Origin: Amazonocrinis nigriterrae CENA67
GTDB taxonomy: Bacteria > Cyanobacteriota > Cyanobacteriia > Cyanobacteriales > Nostocaceae
Length of the DNA stretch: 64,000 nt
Direction: 5' to 3'
Assembly (NCBI RefSeq): GCF_016056305.1
Contig: NZ_JAECZC010000002.1
Coordinates: 203,934 to 267,933, forward strand
Position numbers and translations under genes: made by a program. The first letter of the stretch is position 1, and each line of letters begins with the position of its first letter. Of this stretch, positions 5,251-57,594 are shown in pieces. The notes beneath the pieces are model-generated. The model saw only the letters and a list, made by a program, of their open reading frames with translations, made no database searches and was not told the origin of the DNA.

Positions 5251-6327
5251 CTACTGACTATGTATTAGCTGCAAGGAATTGTCTTGCTCAAATTTGATTT
5301 TTTCATAAAGAGCAGCAATTTCTGTAACTCGATCAGTAATTCTGTTTTTTAATGCTTTTTGATAACCTGCTTCAGTAATCACTTCCATGACATCAGGATT
5401 TTTTAAAAGATATTCAACTTTCTGTCTTAATTCATCAGGATTGGAAAAATAAACAGCTTCTTTGTCTTCTAAAAATAAGTTTAGTAATTCCTGACTTCTT
5501 TCACTGAGCATCAGTGTTCCTGTTGCTGGAATTTCATAGGTTCTAATATTATGTCCATCTTCATTTTGGGGACGGAGAATATTGAGACCCATTTTAGCAG
5601 AGCCTAAAATTTGAGGAATTTCTTGATAACTGCACATTCCTTGACACAGACCTTTCAAGGATACTTCTTGACAATGAGTATTCCAGTAATTGGAACCCCA
5701 AAGTCCTAATCGATAATCAGCGATCGCTTTTAAATACTGCTCTCTTTTGCGGCTACCATCCCAGTTACCAATAAACGCTACATCGTAGATTGGGTTAGTC
5801 TGCCGTTGGGGAAAATGATATTCAACATCGCTACAAAAGGGGTGAAAAAAAGCTTGTTTAACGCCATTTTTCATCAGACGTTTCACAAGTTCTTGGCTCC
5901 AAATAAAAGCCGCATTCCATAAGGGAAATCCCCGTTTTACCCAGGAATTAGTGTGTGTGTGATGAGCATCTACAGGATTATCTGTATAAAATACAAAGGC
6001 TAAACCCTTTTGCTGTAAAGCTAAAATAGTATCAGGGTGAACTAAACGAGGTGAAATTACTAAAGTTAAATCAGGCTGAAACTGATTTGCCTGTTCTACT
6101 AATTTATGATTTGCTGACTTTCCTAGTAATTGCCATGCCAATCGCCAAGCAACTTTATCCCACAAACCACCTGAAGATAAACTTGATGTTACTTCCCTCC
6201 AACTGAAATGTCGTACCTCACAGCCTAAGGCAGAAAATCCTCGCGCATAAACTTCCTCGGTACGCCCTATTTCTAAGTCTTCTCCTACAATTAATATTTT
6301 TTTCATTTGATCTACTTTTATTTGCAC
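5251..6327 (-). CDS. CgeB-like glycosyltransferase (Glycos_transf_1_2 family)
   Basis: A protein of up to 358 residues. A second in-frame ATG at 6304-6306 gives MKKILIVGEDLEIGRTEE, a more natural beginning of a GT-B Rossmann domain, so the true start may be 6306. The C-terminal half has NILRPQNEDGHNIRTYEIPA then TGTLMLSE and a segment ending YFSNPDELRQKVEYLL. This pattern is typical of the CgeB/DUF3880 glycosyltransferase group that modifies surface polysaccharides or spore coats. The acceptor and donor are unknown. It is in series with the flanking glycosyltransferases. Confidence 0.75.
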   Translation of the reverse strand: MQIKVDQMKKILIVGEDLEIGRTEEVYARGFSALGCEVRHFSWREVTSSLSSGGLWDKVAWRLAWQLLGKSANHKLVEQANQFQPDLTLVISPRLVHPDTILALQQKGLAFVFYTDNPVDAHHTHTNSWVKRGFPLWNAAFIWSQELVKRLMKNGVKQAFFHPFCSDVEYHFPQRQTNPIYDVAFIGNWDGSRKREQYLKAIADYRLGLWGSNYWNTHCQEVSLKGLCQGMCSYQEIPQILGSAKMGLNILRPQNEDGHNIRTYEIPATGTLMLSERSQELLNLFLEDKEAVYFSNPDELRQKVEYLLKNPDVMEVITEAGYQKALKNRITDRVTEIAALYEKIKFEQDNSLQLIHSQ

Positions 6328-6357
6328 TTAATAGCTAATCCGTTGACCTCAGGTTGC

Positions 6358-7548
6358 TCATTTATAACCTCGTATAACAAAGTTTAAAGCTTGTTTGAGT
6401 CCTTGTATATCTTCTTGATAGCTCCACTTCTCAATTAGTTCCAGGCTGTAATCTCCTGCAAAATCATGCTTAGCGATCGCCCAGCGAATTGACTCTGCTA
6501 AAGCGGTAATATCTCCTACAGGATAAATCCGTCCATTTTGTTTGTCTTTCACCAAGTTCAAAGCACAGCCTACTTGATCGCTGACAACCACTGCTTTACC
6601 TGCATTCATGACTTCATTAATTGCTAATCCCCAAGGCTCGAAACCAGATGGTAAGACAAATACGTCACACAAATCATACATAGCAGGCATTTGGGACTGA
6701 TTCTGAAAACCTAAAAAGTGAATTGACTTCCAACCTGTTTCTTGGGCTTGAGCTTCCAGACTTGGGCGTAATACTCCATCTCCCACAAACAACAGGTAAG
6801 GTTCTGGTTCTTGCACGCCATCAGATGAAAGCAATCGATAAGCAGCTAACAAATCATAGGGACGCTTGACATCAATCAGTTTGGCAGCATAAAGAATAAT
6901 CGGTCTATGTGGATCTAAATTGAGCGATCGCCGTAGTTCTTCACGCTTAGTGCCAGCTAGCACAGCACACTTCTGGAAATAGTCATTATCAACGGCATAA
7001 GGCATACAAAACAGGCGATCGTCCTCAATCCCATAGCTCTTGTAAAACTCATAGTTGGAAGTTCCTATATAGCAAAACGCTGCTATTTTCTCAAACAGCC
7101 ATTTCAGAAAAACTTGTTTGACCGTTTGTTTAATGGGATTGGTCGCTTTGCTTAAGTTGTTAGCTTCTCCTCTTAGCAAAACAGGAATTCCCAAGTTATT
7201 TGCTGCCAATACTGCTTGGATACCACAAAGCCAAGACCATCCATGCACCCAAACTGCATCGAATTGTCCTTGCTTTAACTGTTTAGCAATATCTTTGGCA
7301 AGTGACTGTTGTAAGCCGCTTTGCTGTTTCTGAATACGCCAGCAGTCTAAAAAGTGATAATTATAACCCTCTGTCAGAGGAACATCCCACTCAATTAATC
7401 GCCCAAAGCCTTCATCTTGATATGCTTTTAAAGAAAAATCACTGTAGAAAAAAACTTTCAGATCAATTTCGGGGTCGGCTGCTATCAGTCGCAACAGAGG
7501 AGCTTGATACTGAATTGGGTGAGAGACAAAGTAAGCTAAACGCAACAT
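6358..7548 (-). CDS. Glycosyltransferase family 4
   Basis: A 396-residue GT-B enzyme. The N-terminus LRLAYFVSHPIQYQAPLLRL is the acceptor-domain start seen in many EPS GT4 proteins. The C-terminal domain shows PIILYAAKLIDVKRPYDLL, LLFVGDGVLRPSLEAQA and PSGFEPWGLAINEVMNAGKA, the last being the family's EPWGL catalytic/donor motif. This is one of the best-conserved glycosyltransferases of the locus. It follows a 243-bp gap, so it may begin a transcription unit that continues through the CgeB-like and later genes. Confidence 0.88.
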   Translation of the reverse strand: MLRLAYFVSHPIQYQAPLLRLIAADPEIDLKVFFYSDFSLKAYQDEGFGRLIEWDVPLTEGYNYHFLDCWRIQKQQSGLQQSLAKDIAKQLKQGQFDAVWVHGWSWLCGIQAVLAANNLGIPVLLRGEANNLSKATNPIKQTVKQVFLKWLFEKIAAFCYIGTSNYEFYKSYGIEDDRLFCMPYAVDNDYFQKCAVLAGTKREELRRSLNLDPHRPIILYAAKLIDVKRPYDLLAAYRLLSSDGVQEPEPYLLFVGDGVLRPSLEAQAQETGWKSIHFLGFQNQSQMPAMYDLCDVFVLPSGFEPWGLAINEVMNAGKAVVVSDQVGCALNLVKDKQNGRIYPVGDITALAESIRWAIAKHDFAGDYSLELIEKWSYQEDIQGLKQALNFVIRGYK

Positions 7549-7791
7549 TAGTTAGCAAGGTTGTAATTTCAAATTATTCACAGCAATTGCTAGATCAAAC
7601 ACCATTAAATATGTCTATGCTATTCATTTAGCACTAACTTTACTCTGAATAAAGTTTCACTAATATTAATTTTTACACGAACCAAATTCCTATTGTTTTT
7701 ACAATTCAATACATTTCCTAAATAGCTTTATTCGTTTTACTTTTGGATTGAGCAATTACGCTGTTGAATCATGCTTAATATCTTAATACCA

Positions 7792-8769
7792 TCAGCTCAA
7801 AAAAGTTGCCGCAAGTCGAGGAAGTCCACGAATGTAGAACAAACTAGCCCAATACCCACCTCCACAGTAGTGGCCAGCCACAAGGTCAGGTTCATCTGTA
7901 CTAGGGCAAATTGCATAGGTATCTGGTAGGGGAACGGTATTTGATTTGGTTAACTCCATAGCCCATAGAGTTAGTTCAGCATAATAGTTACCTGTACCAT
8001 CTGCATTCCAAAAATCAGGATGTTGCAGATATCTCTCTATTCTTTCAAAGTCTAGGGTATCTTGACGAGAGCGAACCACACCTGGATTAAATTTTTCTAT
8101 ACAATCTTTACCTAAGAAATTTGCTAAATCTGTTGATTGCAAGCAATATCTATAACTATTATCAGTAGAATATAAATTAGTTAGTTCACAAGGATATGTA
8201 TTTGCTGTAATTTCCTCAATTAGTTTTTTGGGGTAAGAAAAAAATAATACGTCAGAATCTAGCAATATAAAGGAGTTATTTTTTGTAAAAAAGAAGGGAT
8301 CAAATAATTTCAGTGCAAATATCAGTTTTTGACGGAATTCGGCACATTTCACCAATCTTTTACTCTTAAAATAGCTGACCACTACTGAGTCAGCTGTCTC
8401 CCTGTCTATAATCTGACATTGGGGAAAAACTTTATTTAATTTCTCTAAATCTAAGTTAGTTAACGACCCATCATTGTGGACTACTATCCGACATGGTTGG
8501 TCACAAAAATAAGTAAAAGAATACAATGACCACAGACCTTCATAAATACGCTTGTGATGCAGAAGCATATGTACTTCTATGGCACCTTCTCCTGCTGGAA
8601 TAGGCTTAGCGTTTAAGATACTGGTTAGGTAGCGACGTTTAGCGATCTGCATCTTGATCGCTCCTGGAATAGTCAGCGCCCTCAGATGATGAATCTTCAG
8701 AAGTGCTTTACCAAGCTTTAGCCGGCGAGCGCTTGTTCGCAGCAATTTGATCAATTGATTTTCACTCAT
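7792..8769 (-). CDS. Probable glycosyltransferase with a DxD-type motif (family unassigned)
   Basis: A 325-residue protein I do not assign to a numbered family. It has VHMLLHHKRIYEGLWSLYSF, CRIVVHNDGSL and an acidic metal-site candidate SFILLDSDVLFF, followed by a histidine/glycine-rich end (LVAGHYCGGGYW). This order (strand, DGSL, long helix, DSDVLF) resembles GT-A glycosyltransferases of the GT8/nucleotide-diphospho-sugar group. It stands 12 bp downstream of a GT4 gene, so the context supports a sugar transferase. The hydrophobic DSDVLFF motif makes a role unrelated to sugars unlikely but not excluded. Confidence 0.6.
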   Translation of the reverse strand: MSENQLIKLLRTSARRLKLGKALLKIHHLRALTIPGAIKMQIAKRRYLTSILNAKPIPAGEGAIEVHMLLHHKRIYEGLWSLYSFTYFCDQPCRIVVHNDGSLTNLDLEKLNKVFPQCQIIDRETADSVVVSYFKSKRLVKCAEFRQKLIFALKLFDPFFFTKNNSFILLDSDVLFFSYPKKLIEEITANTYPCELTNLYSTDNSYRYCLQSTDLANFLGKDCIEKFNPGVVRSRQDTLDFERIERYLQHPDFWNADGTGNYYAELTLWAMELTKSNTVPLPDTYAICPSTDEPDLVAGHYCGGGYWASLFYIRGLPRLAATFLS

Positions 8770-53831: not shown

Positions 53832-54632
53832 ATGGCAATAGATGTTTGTTTAGCTGGTGCGACAGGGTGGGTAGGACGTTCCTTAGTCAAAGCGATTGAC
53901 GCTGAACAAGACTTGAATCTTGTAGGTGCAATTTCCAGAACTCATGCTGGCAAGAAATTGGCTGATGTAATCATCGAGACATCATCAGATGTAATCATTA
54001 GTAGTTCTGTTAAAGAAGCTTTAATTAAAAAGTGTGATGTTTTAGTTGATTACACTAAACCAAATGTAGTTAAAAGCAACGTCCTAGAAGCTATTGAGAA
54101 TGGTATTCATGTAGTCATTGGTACTTCTGGACTTACAGATGAAGACTTCGTGGAAATCAATGAACAGGCAATTAAGCATCAAGTAGGAGTTTTAGCAGCT
54201 GGTAACTTTGCAATTACAGCAGTGCTTCTGCAACGTTTTGCCGAGTTAGCAGCCAAGTACACCAGCATTTGGGAAATTATAGATTACGCTTCTGAAAAGA
54301 AAGTAGATGCTCCCAGTGGGACAGCTAGGGAACTTGCTTCCCGACTAGGGCGAGTTAAACAGCCAATTCCATACAATCCCATAGAAAAAACTCAAGGTGC
54401 AAAAGAAAGTAGAGGCGCAACACTCAATGGGACACAAGTGCATTCGTTGCGTTTACCTGGTTACACTTTAGCGGTGGAAGCAATTTTTGGTCTGGGAGAA
54501 GAAAAGCTAATAATTCGACATGAAGCAGGAAGTAGTGCAGAACCTTATGTCAAAGGAACTTTATTAGCTATTGGCCAAGTGAGTTCTTTCGTAGGATTGA
54601 AACGGGGTCTGGATAGTGTTATGGAATTGTAG
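53832..54632 (+). CDS. DapB-like reductase lacking the catalytic histidine pair
   Basis: A 266-residue dihydrodipicolinate-reductase fold protein. The N-terminus IDVCLAGATGWVGRSLVKAI binds NAD(P)H, VVIGTSGLTDED and LAAGNFAITAVLL match the hinge and the APNFS region, and KKVDAPSGTARELA is the substrate loop (Pro161-Ser162-Gly163-Thr164). In E. coli DapB the residues before this are HHRHK. Here the aligned stretch is ASEKK (Ala153, Ser154), so the general acid His is absent although the Lys is kept. It may have a different substrate or be a paralogue of a true DapB elsewhere. It converges on the FAD-enzyme remnant. Confidence 0.8.
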   Translation: MAIDVCLAGATGWVGRSLVKAIDAEQDLNLVGAISRTHAGKKLADVIIETSSDVIISSSVKEALIKKCDVLVDYTKPNVVKSNVLEAIENGIHVVIGTSGLTDEDFVEINEQAIKHQVGVLAAGNFAITAVLLQRFAELAAKYTSIWEIIDYASEKKVDAPSGTARELASRLGRVKQPIPYNPIEKTQGAKESRGATLNGTQVHSLRLPGYTLAVEAIFGLGEEKLIIRHEAGSSAEPYVKGTLLAIGQVSSFVGLKRGLDSVMEL

Positions 54633-54641
54633 GTGGGTTGT

Positions 54642-54700
54642 TAGTTGTCAGTTGTCAGTTGTCAGTTGTCAGTTGTCCCAATTCCCAATTCCCAATTCCC
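54642..54700. repeat. STRR-type heptamer arrays (GTTGTCA then CCAATTC)
   Basis: About five GTTGTCA heptamers followed by three CCAATTC heptamers lie just after the DapB-like stop codon. The minus-strand FAD-enzyme fragment reads into them. Confidence 0.85.
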
Positions 54701-55471
54701 TTTTATATCTGCGGTTGAGATTATGTTGCGTTCTAAACACCAGCGAATTAAGTAGAGGGCTTCTGACTCACCTATTTGCTGCTGATGTAATTGCTCGATT
54801 AAGCTGGTAGTCGCCAGTGGTTTAGTGCAATAGTCTCGCATGGTCAACAGGTCAAAGTTTCCTAGCCAGCGTACTATGTCACCATCAGGCAAAGCGATCG
54901 CTTCTGTGCATTTTATCAACCCATTGATATAAAGTCCTGTCATCTTGGTTTGTCCAGTGTAATAAACTCTAGATGGCAGGGCAGTATTATTAAAAGATGG
55001 TTTTGCTGGGTTCGTAGCTAGAGGCTGATTGCTAGATAAAGAATTGATATTTGATAAATGTCGTAACTTTTCCGCGTTTACCAGTTCCAGGTAATACTGA
55101 GTCGCATAATTTGCATCTGCTGGTGAATCTCGCCAGGTGCGAACCACAGCAGCAGCAGCTAAAGCACTTGATAGAGCAAAACGGATTCCCTGTCCGGCAA
55201 TGGGGCTGTATGCTAGTGCTGCATCTCCCACAGCCAGCCTGCGACCTTGAATAGGTGCTTGTGCCCACTGTGGAGAAACTGGTCTTCGTTCTACTAAGTG
55301 GAACTGCGTAGCTTTAAGACACAAATTTTCTTGAATTAGCTCTTGAACCTGCTCAAAATTAGTTTGGTACGGACTAACAACCCCAACTGTCATGGTATCA
55401 GGCAAACCAAGACGATAAGCCCAACCGCCTGAAAATTGAGCTATGCGCCCACGCAGTTGCTCAACCAGCCG
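54662..55471 (-). pseudogene. FAD-dependent monooxygenase/halogenase-like, 5'-truncated remnant
   Basis: The minus-strand frame is open from 55471 to 54662 with no ATG near its beginning. A TAA (55472-55474) lies directly before the first homologous codons (RLVEQLRGRIAQFSGGWAYR). The product is only the C-terminal half of a flavin monooxygenase of the LodB/QhpG/tryptophan-halogenase type: GRRLAVGDAALAYSPIAGQG is the second FAD-binding motif, followed by IRFALSSALAAAAVVRTW. The N-terminal GxGxxG half is missing, so it cannot bind FAD properly. Its last residues (GNWELGIGTTDN) are encoded by heptamer repeats, so the 3' end is replaced too. Confidence 0.75.
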
Positions 55472-55512
55472 TTAGTCCTTGGCACGCCGACCAAGAACCA
55501 TCTGCCATCTCT

Positions 55513-56004
55513 TTGAATTTAGCCCAATCTTGTAACTTGACATGTAGCTATTGTTATGCTGATGAAGGGCGATTTGGTGGACGGCAACGTTTGATGTCGG
55601 TGGAAGTAGCGTTAACAACAATCAAGCGACTGATTGAGCAGGCACAGAAACGACGAGTCACCATTGGTTTTATTGGCGGTGAGCCATTTCTGAATCGAGC
55701 CACACTCTACCGCAGTGTGGAATATGCCAATGAACTGGCGGCTCGTCGCGGCATCTCGGTAGGTTTTTCTGTCACCACCAATGGAACTCTACTTACTGAG
55801 TCTGATATACAACTGCTGCGGGACAATGCTTTTGCTGTGTCCGTGAGCATTGATGGCGGTGCGAATGTGCATGATTTACACCGTACAGACAACCGTGGTC
55901 AAGGCAGCTTTGCTACAGTTGTGCAGGATCTTTCCCCCTTACTGGCAGATCCGGGACAAGCGAGGATCGCAGCACGTTGTACAGTGACTCGCACCGACTT
56001 GTGA
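55513..56004 (+). pseudogene. Radical SAM enzyme, N-terminal core only, 5'-truncated, ended by an in-frame TGA
   Basis: Encodes the catalytic core of a radical SAM protein: LAQSCNLTCSYCYADEGRFG has the CxxxCxxC iron-sulfur motif, GFIGGEPFLNRATL the GGEP SAM-binding motif, and TNGTLLTESDIQLLRDNAFA plus SVSIDGGANVHDLHRTD the following strands. The frame is open upstream to 55363 but has no ATG. Only TTG (55513) is available, and that lies within conserved sequence, so the original start is lost. The frame ends at TGA 56002-56004 and continues in the same frame after it. Such enzymes of the SPASM/peptide-maturase kind modify peptides or cofactors. Confidence 0.75.
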
Positions 56005-56529
56005 GTTTTGGAAAGAGTTGCAGCCCTGAGTGCCATCGGGTTTCAAGAAATTGGCGTTAGTCCTTTGGATGGTCTAATAGTCTGGCGTTTGGTGCGTTCT
56101 TTAGAGCCTGGTTTAGTGAAAATCAAACTTTGGCAACGCCAAGCAGGCGGTGAAGGCAATCCGCCATCCAGCGCTGAACTTGAACTGAATGGGTGGCGTC
56201 GGGTTTTTATTGATTCTCAAAGCGGCGTTATCAAACAAGTCTATCGACCTGGAGAGTTAACTCAGAGTCTTTGTTCTCCTTGGCAGCACGATTTCCGTGA
56301 CTGTGCTTGTTTTTATTGGGCTTCCAATCACCCGGATATCGTTTTAGGCGAAGATACTCTGGGTGAACCGACACTACCATCTGGTGCTTCAGCCGACCCC
56401 GAACGGGCGAATACACCCATTGATTGGCTGCGATCGGATCGTTCCCTAGGCGGTCGTGCTGGTGCTTTGGGGACTCCCCAACAAAACCGCCCCTTCCAAA
56501 TGGATCACTACGAGATTAGCCAACGCTGA
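56005..56529 (+). pseudogene. Same-frame continuation: radical SAM end fused to a LodA-like segment, ended by a second TGA
   Basis: Starts one codon after the first TGA with VLERVAALSAIGFQEIGVSP, typical radical SAM C-terminal sequence. After about 20 residues it changes to VWRLVRSLEPGLVKIKLWQR, then a segment with YRPGELTQSLCSPWQHDF, then CACFYWASNHPDIV. This last part recalls the conserved PWQ-D-x-C-YW-RPD region of LodA-type (CTQ) oxidases and their ferritin-fused relatives. I infer an internal deletion joining two genes near 56070. The frame ends at TGA 56527-56529, followed in frame by the ferritin-like part. Confidence 0.65.
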
Positions 56530-56544
56530 CAAGAGTTAGCTGTT

Positions 56545-57414
56545 GTGCTTGGGGGTAAAGAAATCTCGCAGATATATCGACCACCAGCACCTGATAATGC
56601 TAATCCATACAAAAATCCAGAGGTGCTAGCAGCTAAGTTGTATGATTTGGCTGGTTTAGAACATGTTCTGTGCTTGGAGTACCTTTACGCCCTTTACTCT
56701 TTAGTTGCTCCTGAAGAGGCAGATGTGAACATCTGGCCAACACTCCGCAATGACTTAACTTTCGTCAGTCACGAGTTGTTGTTGGTAGCTGTGAGTGAAA
56801 TGCGTCACCTGCGTTGGGTGAATCAGTTGCTTTGGGAACTCGACCACGCAGGACTGACGACAAAAGCCTATGGCCCGGCTTTAGAAGTTGCTGATCGTAT
56901 TCCTGTGGGTAACGGTCGTACTCGTCCCCGACAACTACGTCCTCTCAATAGAAAAGCCTTGGCTGACTTTATCGCCGTGGAAGCCCCCAGTGGTGGTATT
57001 GATGGTCAGTATTCACGGGTATTGGCGACACTGGGTCAGCCCCAATATCCAGACACTCTCTATCAACTGGCTGGGCGAATCATTGCCGATGGTATGGAGC
57101 ATTTTAGCAAGTTCCGCGAAATCGAAACGGTACTCCGTATTTATCAAGATGGGTCGTCGGCTAATGGCGCTAGACCAGCATACCTGAGAAATATTACGCC
57201 TGCGCCTAGTGATCATCCAGATGCTAAAGAAGCCTTGGATGGCTACCACAGACTTCTCGGCTACTTAAAAGCAGCTTATGCAAAAGGAGATATGGAAGAT
57301 GCCAACAATATTGTCTCTGCACGTCAAGAAATGATCAACTTACAAGCGATCGCCAAAAAGCTGGCGACTCAAGGATTTGGCATTCCATTTTTCGAGCCTC
57401 ACCCCAGTGAGTGA
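56545..57414 (+). CDS. Ferritin-like domain protein (VioB/iminophenyl-pyruvate dimer synthase family), probably part of a broken gene
   Basis: 289 residues from GTG 56545, in the same frame as the two preceding fragments. A ferritin-like diiron bundle is visible: LEHVLCLEYLYALYSLV (Glu39, His40, Glu45), SHELLLVAVSEMRHLRWVNQ (Glu77, Glu85, His88), and DGMEHFSKFREIETVLR. The pattern fits the PF12902 ferritin-like family found in VioB and related tailoring proteins. No good ribosome site precedes the GTG, so this domain may be untranslated or expressed only by readthrough. The domain itself looks intact. The DNA ends cleanly with TGA at 57412-57414. Confidence 0.65.
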   Translation: MLGGKEISQIYRPPAPDNANPYKNPEVLAAKLYDLAGLEHVLCLEYLYALYSLVAPEEADVNIWPTLRNDLTFVSHELLLVAVSEMRHLRWVNQLLWELDHAGLTTKAYGPALEVADRIPVGNGRTRPRQLRPLNRKALADFIAVEAPSGGIDGQYSRVLATLGQPQYPDTLYQLAGRIIADGMEHFSKFREIETVLRIYQDGSSANGARPAYLRNITPAPSDHPDAKEALDGYHRLLGYLKAAYAKGDMEDANNIVSARQEMINLQAIAKKLATQGFGIPFFEPHPSE

Positions 57415-57528: not shown

Positions 57529-57594
57529 GGTAATAGGTAATAGGTAATGGGTGATGACTAATAGTAAAATCCAATTCCCAATTCCCAATTCCCG
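57529..57594. repeat. STRR-type heptamer arrays (GGTAATA and CCAATTC)
   Basis: Three GGTAATA-like heptamers, a short spacer and three CCAATTC heptamers. The CCAATTC unit is the same as at 54676-54700. Confidence 0.8.

Follow-up and report, generated by a model that had tools for sequence, protein, structure and literature searches.

A decayed cyanobacterial locus and its intact relatives: a probable split LodA-type oxidase with two kinds of maturation enzyme

Introduction

The locus at positions 54662-57414 of a 64,000-nucleotide stretch of Amazonocrinis nigriterrae CENA67 (the window; contig NZ_JAECZC010000002.1, positions 203,934 to 267,933) is what remains, as pseudogenes, of a four-gene system whose intact form occurs in other genomes and on plasmids. 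The intact set consists of a QhpG-like flavoprotein, a protein called NSUB here, a QhpD-like radical SAM/SPASM enzyme, and a protein called CSUB here. With a probability of about 0.7, this set encodes a split cysteine tryptophylquinone (CTQ) oxidase of the LodA type with double maturation and a diiron domain. The window itself holds a broken set, and it is the intact family that is of interest. Two groups of enzymes are known to contain CTQ: LodA/GoxA, which have a flavoprotein partner, and quinohemoprotein amine dehydrogenase (QHNDH), in which thioethers are formed by a radical SAM enzyme and a Trp is then dihydroxylated.

NSUB has the fold of LodA/GoxA residues 2-420, and the cofactor site belongs to the LodA C-terminal domain, which CSUB contributes. 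In the mechanism that we propose, the radical SAM/SPASM enzyme would form Cys-to-Asp thioethers in CSUB (C216-D222 and C228-D237, numbered as in CSUB protein P0001), the flavoprotein would hydroxylate W231, and C226 would then bond to W231 to give CTQ. With oxygen, the NSUB-CSUB pair would oxidise an amine or amino acid, releasing hydrogen peroxide, and the diiron domain may use or remove the product. CSUB is quite likely the target of the radical SAM enzyme, and CTQ formation at C226-W231 is likely; for thioethers at exactly C216-D222 and C228-D237 the odds appear a little better than even.

If this mechanism is correct, a widespread LodA-fold family with both kinds of maturase would join the two CTQ groups, would permit a direct test of why thioether cages exist, and would provide candidate new amine oxidases in eight phyla, where plasmid records label them as hypothetical or ferritin-like. 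More tentatively, and with somewhat less than an even chance, the system could be a third CTQ class that bridges the two known ones: a split LodA-fold oxidase with a thioether-caged loop like that of QHNDH, in which QhpC would be related to the LodA C-terminal domain as a minimal form, LodA/GoxA and QHNDH would have cofactor sites of common origin, and the enzyme's own product would be processed by the diiron domain. Searches of the open literature found neither a split LodA nor a LodA with a radical SAM partner described; subscription journals lay mostly outside this scope, and a description elsewhere is possible.

Distribution and organization of the four-gene system

A scan of genome contigs with a profile of the CSUB N-terminal part detected 71 loci, which by record titles belong to eight phyla: Pseudomonadota (42), Actinomycetota (18), Cyanobacteriota (4), Acidobacteriota (2), Myxococcota (2), and Planctomycetota, Chloroflexota, and Nitrospirota (1 each). 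All four genes stand together in 61 of the 71 loci. Seven of the ten incomplete loci (L038, L042, L051, L056, L057, L063, and L092) are entire contigs of 3.4-6.0 kb, two (L026 and L044) appear broken, L044 lying also at a contig end, and in L083 no flavoprotein was found within 18.8 kb. When plasmids were searched with the CSUB fragment, 19 of 72,556 records matched. The 19 best records of the radical SAM search are the same 19, with the two genes on the same strand and less than 600 bases apart; past these records the coverage-weighted identity falls and QhpD genes start. The preliminary description of the window, made from its letters alone, had inferred that the locus has an intact form in which these enzymes could modify a LodA-like/ferritin-like protein, and the fragment search found intact loci: the parts are neighbours both in the genome collection and in every plasmid record that carries the CSUB segment beginning PWQHDF.

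Gene order was compared in 66 four-gene loci, 61 from the genome collection and five from plasmids. The order is NSUB, radical SAM, CSUB, flavoprotein in 39 loci and NSUB, CSUB, radical SAM, flavoprotein in 22, and a divergent flavoprotein gene stands in front in 4. NSUB and CSUB are naturally fused in a Polyangia metagenome-assembled genome (MAG; L025:7369-10698), as a single frame that, counted from its first ATG, encodes 1,110 aa, and this fusion is counted in favour of reading the pair as a split LodA.

NSUB, CSUB and the LodA/GoxA family

A model of NSUB from Bradyrhizobium macuxiense (L046; mean predicted local distance difference test score, pLDDT, 81.5) was compared with the PDB chains ranked highest by Foldseek. 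Rows 1-14 are all LodA/GoxA (Z 11.7-12.7, root-mean-square deviation (rmsd) 3.9-5.2, 316-327 residues aligned), the LodA rows spanning LodA residues 2-420, and the next row has Z 8.8. QHNDH alpha (1jju, 1jmx) matches the model through its Ig-like part with Z 7.4 and 18% identity, amid unrelated Ig-like rows. A joint alignment of NSUB and CSUB fragments with the fusion L025 appeared misaligned, so the chains were folded separately.

CSUB aligns with LodA 497-529 in such a way that C226 falls on Cys516 and D222 on Asp512. This alignment is weak alone (E 0.34), and a profile-profile comparison of the cofactor segments of LodA and CSUB by HHalign (81 split against 24 conventional) gives P 1.5e-12; the similarity of the PWQHDF segment to LodA-type proteins, put forward in the preliminary description, is upheld by both. 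Via the conventional protein L014, the equivalent of CSUB D222 falls on GoxA Asp678, a residue that is equated with QhpC Asp33 in the available text of PMC7876137. W231 stands at the second W of the WWPxxRP motif of conventional proteins, and it is the candidate cofactor Trp, putatively equivalent to LodA W581.

Two other assignments were tried and dropped. W301 was considered as the cofactor Trp; the matching LodA stretch has its Trp at 626, not 581, and W301 seems to fall on W626, weakly, in an aligned stretch that scores below zero. The equation of C34 with LodA C448 was abandoned with the motifs one place out of register.

The split system thus shares with LodA/GoxA and LodB/GoxB the N-domain fold, the Cys516 and Asp512 positions, the PW-x-x-D-x3-C motif, and the flavoprotein neighbour. 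It differs from them in having two chains instead of one (except in the fused L025), a radical SAM gene alongside, two extra cysteines in the cofactor loop, a short Cys-Trp spacing, and a ferritin-like domain that is usually fused. In L021, L061:1449-3548, L074:1-837, L088:2077-4023, L091:13987-15951, L118, and L125, the split system has a conventional single-chain LodA-like gene at a distance of about 10 kb or less, and the two may work together.

Invariant residues and the extra cysteines

Each of the residues C216, D222, C226, C228, W231, and D237 is present in 73 of 73 CSUB proteins, a set that leaves out four partial sequences, and C34 is conserved in 70 of the 73. A scan of the loci for open frames with PWxxDxxxC gave 108 frames. 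Both cysteines of the extra pair (C216 and C228) are present in 84 of these, among which two loci were fetched twice (L012/L020 and L094/L110), and neither is present in the other 24, which are conventional LodA/GoxA (15 loci chosen from 36 plasmid records, 4 beside split systems, and 5 from the genome search).

Of the 84 frames with the extra cysteines, 80 have a radical SAM gene on their own strand at a distance of no more than 4 kb, as against 0 of the 24 conventional frames. Five of the conventional loci (L014-L016, L108, and L109) measure just 3.1-3.4 kb, and another five have their nearest radical SAM gene 5-9 kb away, beside a neighbouring split system. The four misses are L042, L051, and L063, which are entire short contigs, and L044, which has disturbed frames at a contig end. 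The radical SAM gene and the extra pair of cysteines occur together. Searches of the 84 split-type loci located a flavoprotein in 76 and NSUB in 78.

Radical SAM and flavoprotein partners and their relation to QHNDH

By NCBIfam, the closest family of two full-length radical SAM proteins is QhpD (E 9e-78 and 5e-79), with PapB a close second, and that of three flavoproteins is QhpG in all three cases (E 5e-38, 7e-28, and 3e-15). Ten cysteines occur in 68 of 68 radical SAM proteins, which would fit a SPASM enzyme with auxiliary clusters. A flavoprotein tree was built from 53 rows, namely two QhpG, 13 LodB/GoxB, and 38 split-system sequences (34 of 64 full-length ones and 4 of 5 of the short type). 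In this tree LodB/GoxB make up a single group (97, starred), and both QhpG rows are placed among those of the split system (94, not starred). When the 38 split-system flavoproteins were tested as a clade, p-AU was 0.075.

The split system resembles QHNDH (QhpC, QhpD, and QhpG) in having radical SAM/SPASM and flavin monooxygenase partners that are closest to QhpD and QhpG. According to the available text of PMC8172795, QhpC contains the thioethers Cys7-Glu16, Cys27-Asp33, and Cys41-Asp49 and a CTQ at Cys37-Trp43, and the three thioethers are made by the radical SAM enzyme QhpD (PMC8172795 and the available text of PMC7876137). QhpC of Pseudomonas nitroreducens, Paracoccus sanguinis, and two PDB sequences reads C-x5-D-x3-C-x3-C-x-W-x5-D, and the Cys/Asp/Trp spacing of CSUB, C-x5-D-x3-C-x-C-x2-W-x5-D, is similar. 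The cofactor segments of conventional LodA and QhpC (two QhpC sequences, including L126:6128-6454) score 33.8 in HHalign with P 1e-5, and 0 of 150 column shuffles scored as high; a common origin of these two CTQ sites is suggested.

The split-system CSUB differs from QhpC in being several times longer. Genes for the dihaem alpha, beta, and small gamma subunits are absent from the annotation of eight loci (L017-L020 and L101-L104), for which the gene table is incomplete, and the neighbours of the radical SAM gene there are of the NSUB, CSUB, and flavoprotein types. The gamma family PF08992 exceeded its cut-off in none of five genomes searched, with one match below the cut-off.

An alternative division of labour, which we consider unlikely, is that CTQ forms as in LodA, by the flavoprotein only, and that the radical SAM enzyme modifies CSUB elsewhere, for example by a Cys link at C34, or has the ferritin-like part as its target. 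LodA requires LodB, and flavoprotein partners were reported when LodA-like genes were surveyed (PMC4417212 and PMC7876137, each as far as its text is available). The conservation of C34 also favours this alternative, as does the radical SAM fragment in the window, which matches PapB (E 5e-42) better than QhpD (E 3e-38). Against it, the extra cysteine pair sits in the cofactor loop and accompanies the radical SAM gene; a further link at C34 would be compatible with this. The ferritin-like part, moreover, is not a constant target: five plasmid loci with a short CSUB keep the radical SAM gene, and PF12902 was not matched in the short CSUB of L101, the sole one scanned.

The ferritin-like domain

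The ferritin-like family PF12902 is matched by the window remnant with 47.4 bits and by the intact CSUB of L017 with 45.7 bits (cut-off 22.3). Residues 329-591 of the CSUB model (mean pLDDT 82.6) match 3hl1, the Caulobacter ferritin-like protein CC_0557, with Z 20.3, rmsd 2.5, and 220 residues aligned. E345, E391, H394, E452, and H492 are found in 73 of 73 CSUB proteins and position 488 is D or E in all 73, and these conserved residues fit a predicted diiron site. The ferritin-like domain is common to PF12902 proteins such as VioB and 3hl1; in CSUB it is joined to the LodA C-terminal domain. The likeness to VioB is seen at L020:5689-7323, which matches TIGR04492 with E 1.6e-19.

The short CSUB occurs in L101-L104 and L106 and measures 290-300 aa where it is annotated (L101-L104). 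L101-L103 have a separate upstream gene annotated as ferritin-like, for which PF12902 was confirmed in L101, and no ferritin-like gene is annotated within 12 kb in L104, where the PLSDB gene table is incomplete. In Nostoc sp. UHCC 0302 (L020:4341-7323), the gene at the place of NSUB opens with PF12902 and only its C-terminal half matches NSUB; it is preceded by a 420-aa gene without a Pfam or NCBIfam match.

It could also be that the diiron domain is the enzyme, with a VioB-like imine coupling activity, and that the LodA-like part is a non-catalytic scaffold in which the modifications are structural. This seems improbable. The resemblance of the PF12902 domain to part of VioB and the conservation of the likely diiron ligands speak for it, and the invariance of the cofactor Cys and the catalytic Asp speaks against it, as do the loci with a short CSUB, which retain the cofactor motif even in L104 with its lack of an annotated ferritin-like neighbour.

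Weighing the split-oxidase reading

Several observations count against a split CTQ oxidase with double maturation. To our knowledge there is no biochemistry for any member of the family. All matches score below the equivalog cut-offs: for QhpD, 261.9 and 266 of 453 bits; for QhpG, 131.1, 97.7, and 56.1 of 240 bits; for LodA, 12.8 (window piece) and 16.7 (L020 CSUB) of 600 bits; and for GoxA, 16.4 (L017 NSUB) of 750 bits. Motif reasoning is the basis for equating W231 with LodA W581. The CSUB model is unreliable in its cofactor loop, with pLDDT below 50 at 215-221 and 227-234, and no LodA entry is among the rows shown for its fold comparison; because this loop is of low confidence without NSUB, the comparison decides nothing either way.

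The conservation of C216 is partly selected, because one of the two search patterns contained it. C216 is also present in 12 frames outside that pattern (L013, L022, L026, L027, L028, L030, L031, L101-L104, and L106), and C228, W231, and D237 are in neither pattern. LodA and the conventional L112 and L119 have a Cys one place after C216. As for the parallel with QHNDH, the members of the second pair are 8 apart in QhpC (C41-D49) and 9 apart in CSUB (C228-D237), and no counterpart of QhpC Cys7-Glu16 was seen in CSUB. The direct comparison of CSUB with QhpC gives an HHalign score of 13.1, reached by 36 of 150 column shuffles; this is not significant, and the link between CSUB and QhpC runs through LodA.

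Decay of the locus in the window

The reference for the decay is the intact locus L094 of G033, a genome of the same genus, which lies beside the same flanking gene. It encodes a CSUB of 597 aa, a radical SAM protein of 440 aa, an NSUB of 557 aa, and a divergent flavoprotein of 439 aa (L094:11397-12716). A second intact cyanobacterial copy is located on a plasmid of Nostoc sp. UHCC 0926 (L017), and among named records it is a Nostoc plasmid that matches the window locus best.

The flavoprotein remnant occupies 54662-55457 on the minus strand and has lost about 180 N-terminal codons. At 54662-55405 it is recognisable as the C-terminal part of a flavin monooxygenase, as had been described; its top NCBIfam match is QhpG (E 2.9e-18, profile positions 227-416 of 423), followed by LodB (E 6.8e-8). 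The first deletion junction follows at 55457-55458, where the blastn alignment to L094 jumps from 6060 to 8585 in the subject. The roughly 2.5 kb lost here comprise the N-terminal part of the flavoprotein gene, the entire NSUB gene, and the start of the radical SAM gene; the loss of this fourth gene could not be read from the window alone. The radical SAM remnant (55458-56060, plus strand) retains approximately residues 66-266 of 440, with a match of its core to PF04055 (E 1.1e-17), and is 92% identical to G033 without gaps. It is interrupted by an in-frame TGA at 56002-56004 (plus strand). At the second junction (56061-56064), two blastn alignments overlap by 4 bases, and about 0.96 kb are missing that held the C-terminus of the radical SAM protein, including the SPASM part, and about 145 N-terminal codons of CSUB.

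The CSUB remnant (56061-57414, plus strand; 597-598 aa in the intact form) keeps the LodA C-terminal domain and the ferritin-like domain. Its LodA-like part has 95% and 82% protein identity to intact copies. The segment reading PWQHDF...CACFYW matches the end of LodA_C (PF18417) with E 5e-5 and 23.5 bits, where the cut-off is 25, and the cofactor motif C-x5-D-x3-C-x-C-x2-W-x5-D, with C216, D222, C226, C228, W231, and D237, is found at 56272-56337 (plus strand). A second in-frame TGA (56527-56529, plus strand) occupies the site of the near-invariant W301 (72/73). The best-matching stretch of PF12902 is at 56653-56994 (plus strand; E 2.9e-12). The radical SAM core, the LodA_C tail, and the ferritin-like domain all lie in one plus-strand frame, as the preliminary description had observed, and its view that the locus is broken agrees with the two deletions and two TGA codons seen relative to G033.

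The surviving blocks are 90-93% identical to G033, similar to the flanking gene. The reading of the locus as a working fusion of radical SAM protein to CSUB with recoded TGA is rejected: the shared frame and the codon changes in the ungapped radical SAM block relative to G033 (31 synonymous, 12 other) favour it, but the deletions left neither the SPASM cysteines nor NSUB and only part of the flavoprotein, the frame holds two TGA codons, a search of the window genome gave no LodA_C match other than the locus remnant, and the selection signal can date from before the decay.

The decay is a local loss, and the four-gene system is rare in the family to which the window belongs. Counting the window genome, the LodA-like fragment was matched in 8 of 145 genomes of this family, three of them at only 24-26 bits by conventional LodA-like proteins, and the full CSUB was matched in 4 of 149 relatives. 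A Bryobacterales MAG (L026:8006-10915) has CSUB broken into three frames, with neither NSUB nor a flavoprotein found, which could reflect either decay in a second copy or an error in sequencing.

Genomic surroundings

The gene that flanks the remnant at 53832-54632 (plus strand) is presumably dapB-like, and a near-identical product is encoded at L094:12833-13633 of G033. A 23-base repeat of the CCAATTC type is present on both sides of the locus, at 54678-54700 and 57571-57593, and pieces of the copy at 54678-54700 match dozens of further sites in the window genome.

Clusters of neighbouring proteins around the split-system loci include frames that resemble antisense shadows of the core genes, and only clusters recognised by Pfam, each through one protein, are described here. 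DyP-type and animal-type haem peroxidases occur near 6 and 7 of 81 loci, respectively, and would weakly suit a producer of peroxide. A berberine-bridge-type FAD oxidase (L065:994-2574) and a SAM-domain adenylate/guanylate cyclase with an AAA domain (L033:13368-16706) each represent a cluster found in 15 of 81 loci, and the listed loci with either cluster mostly have the order NSUB, CSUB, radical SAM, flavoprotein.

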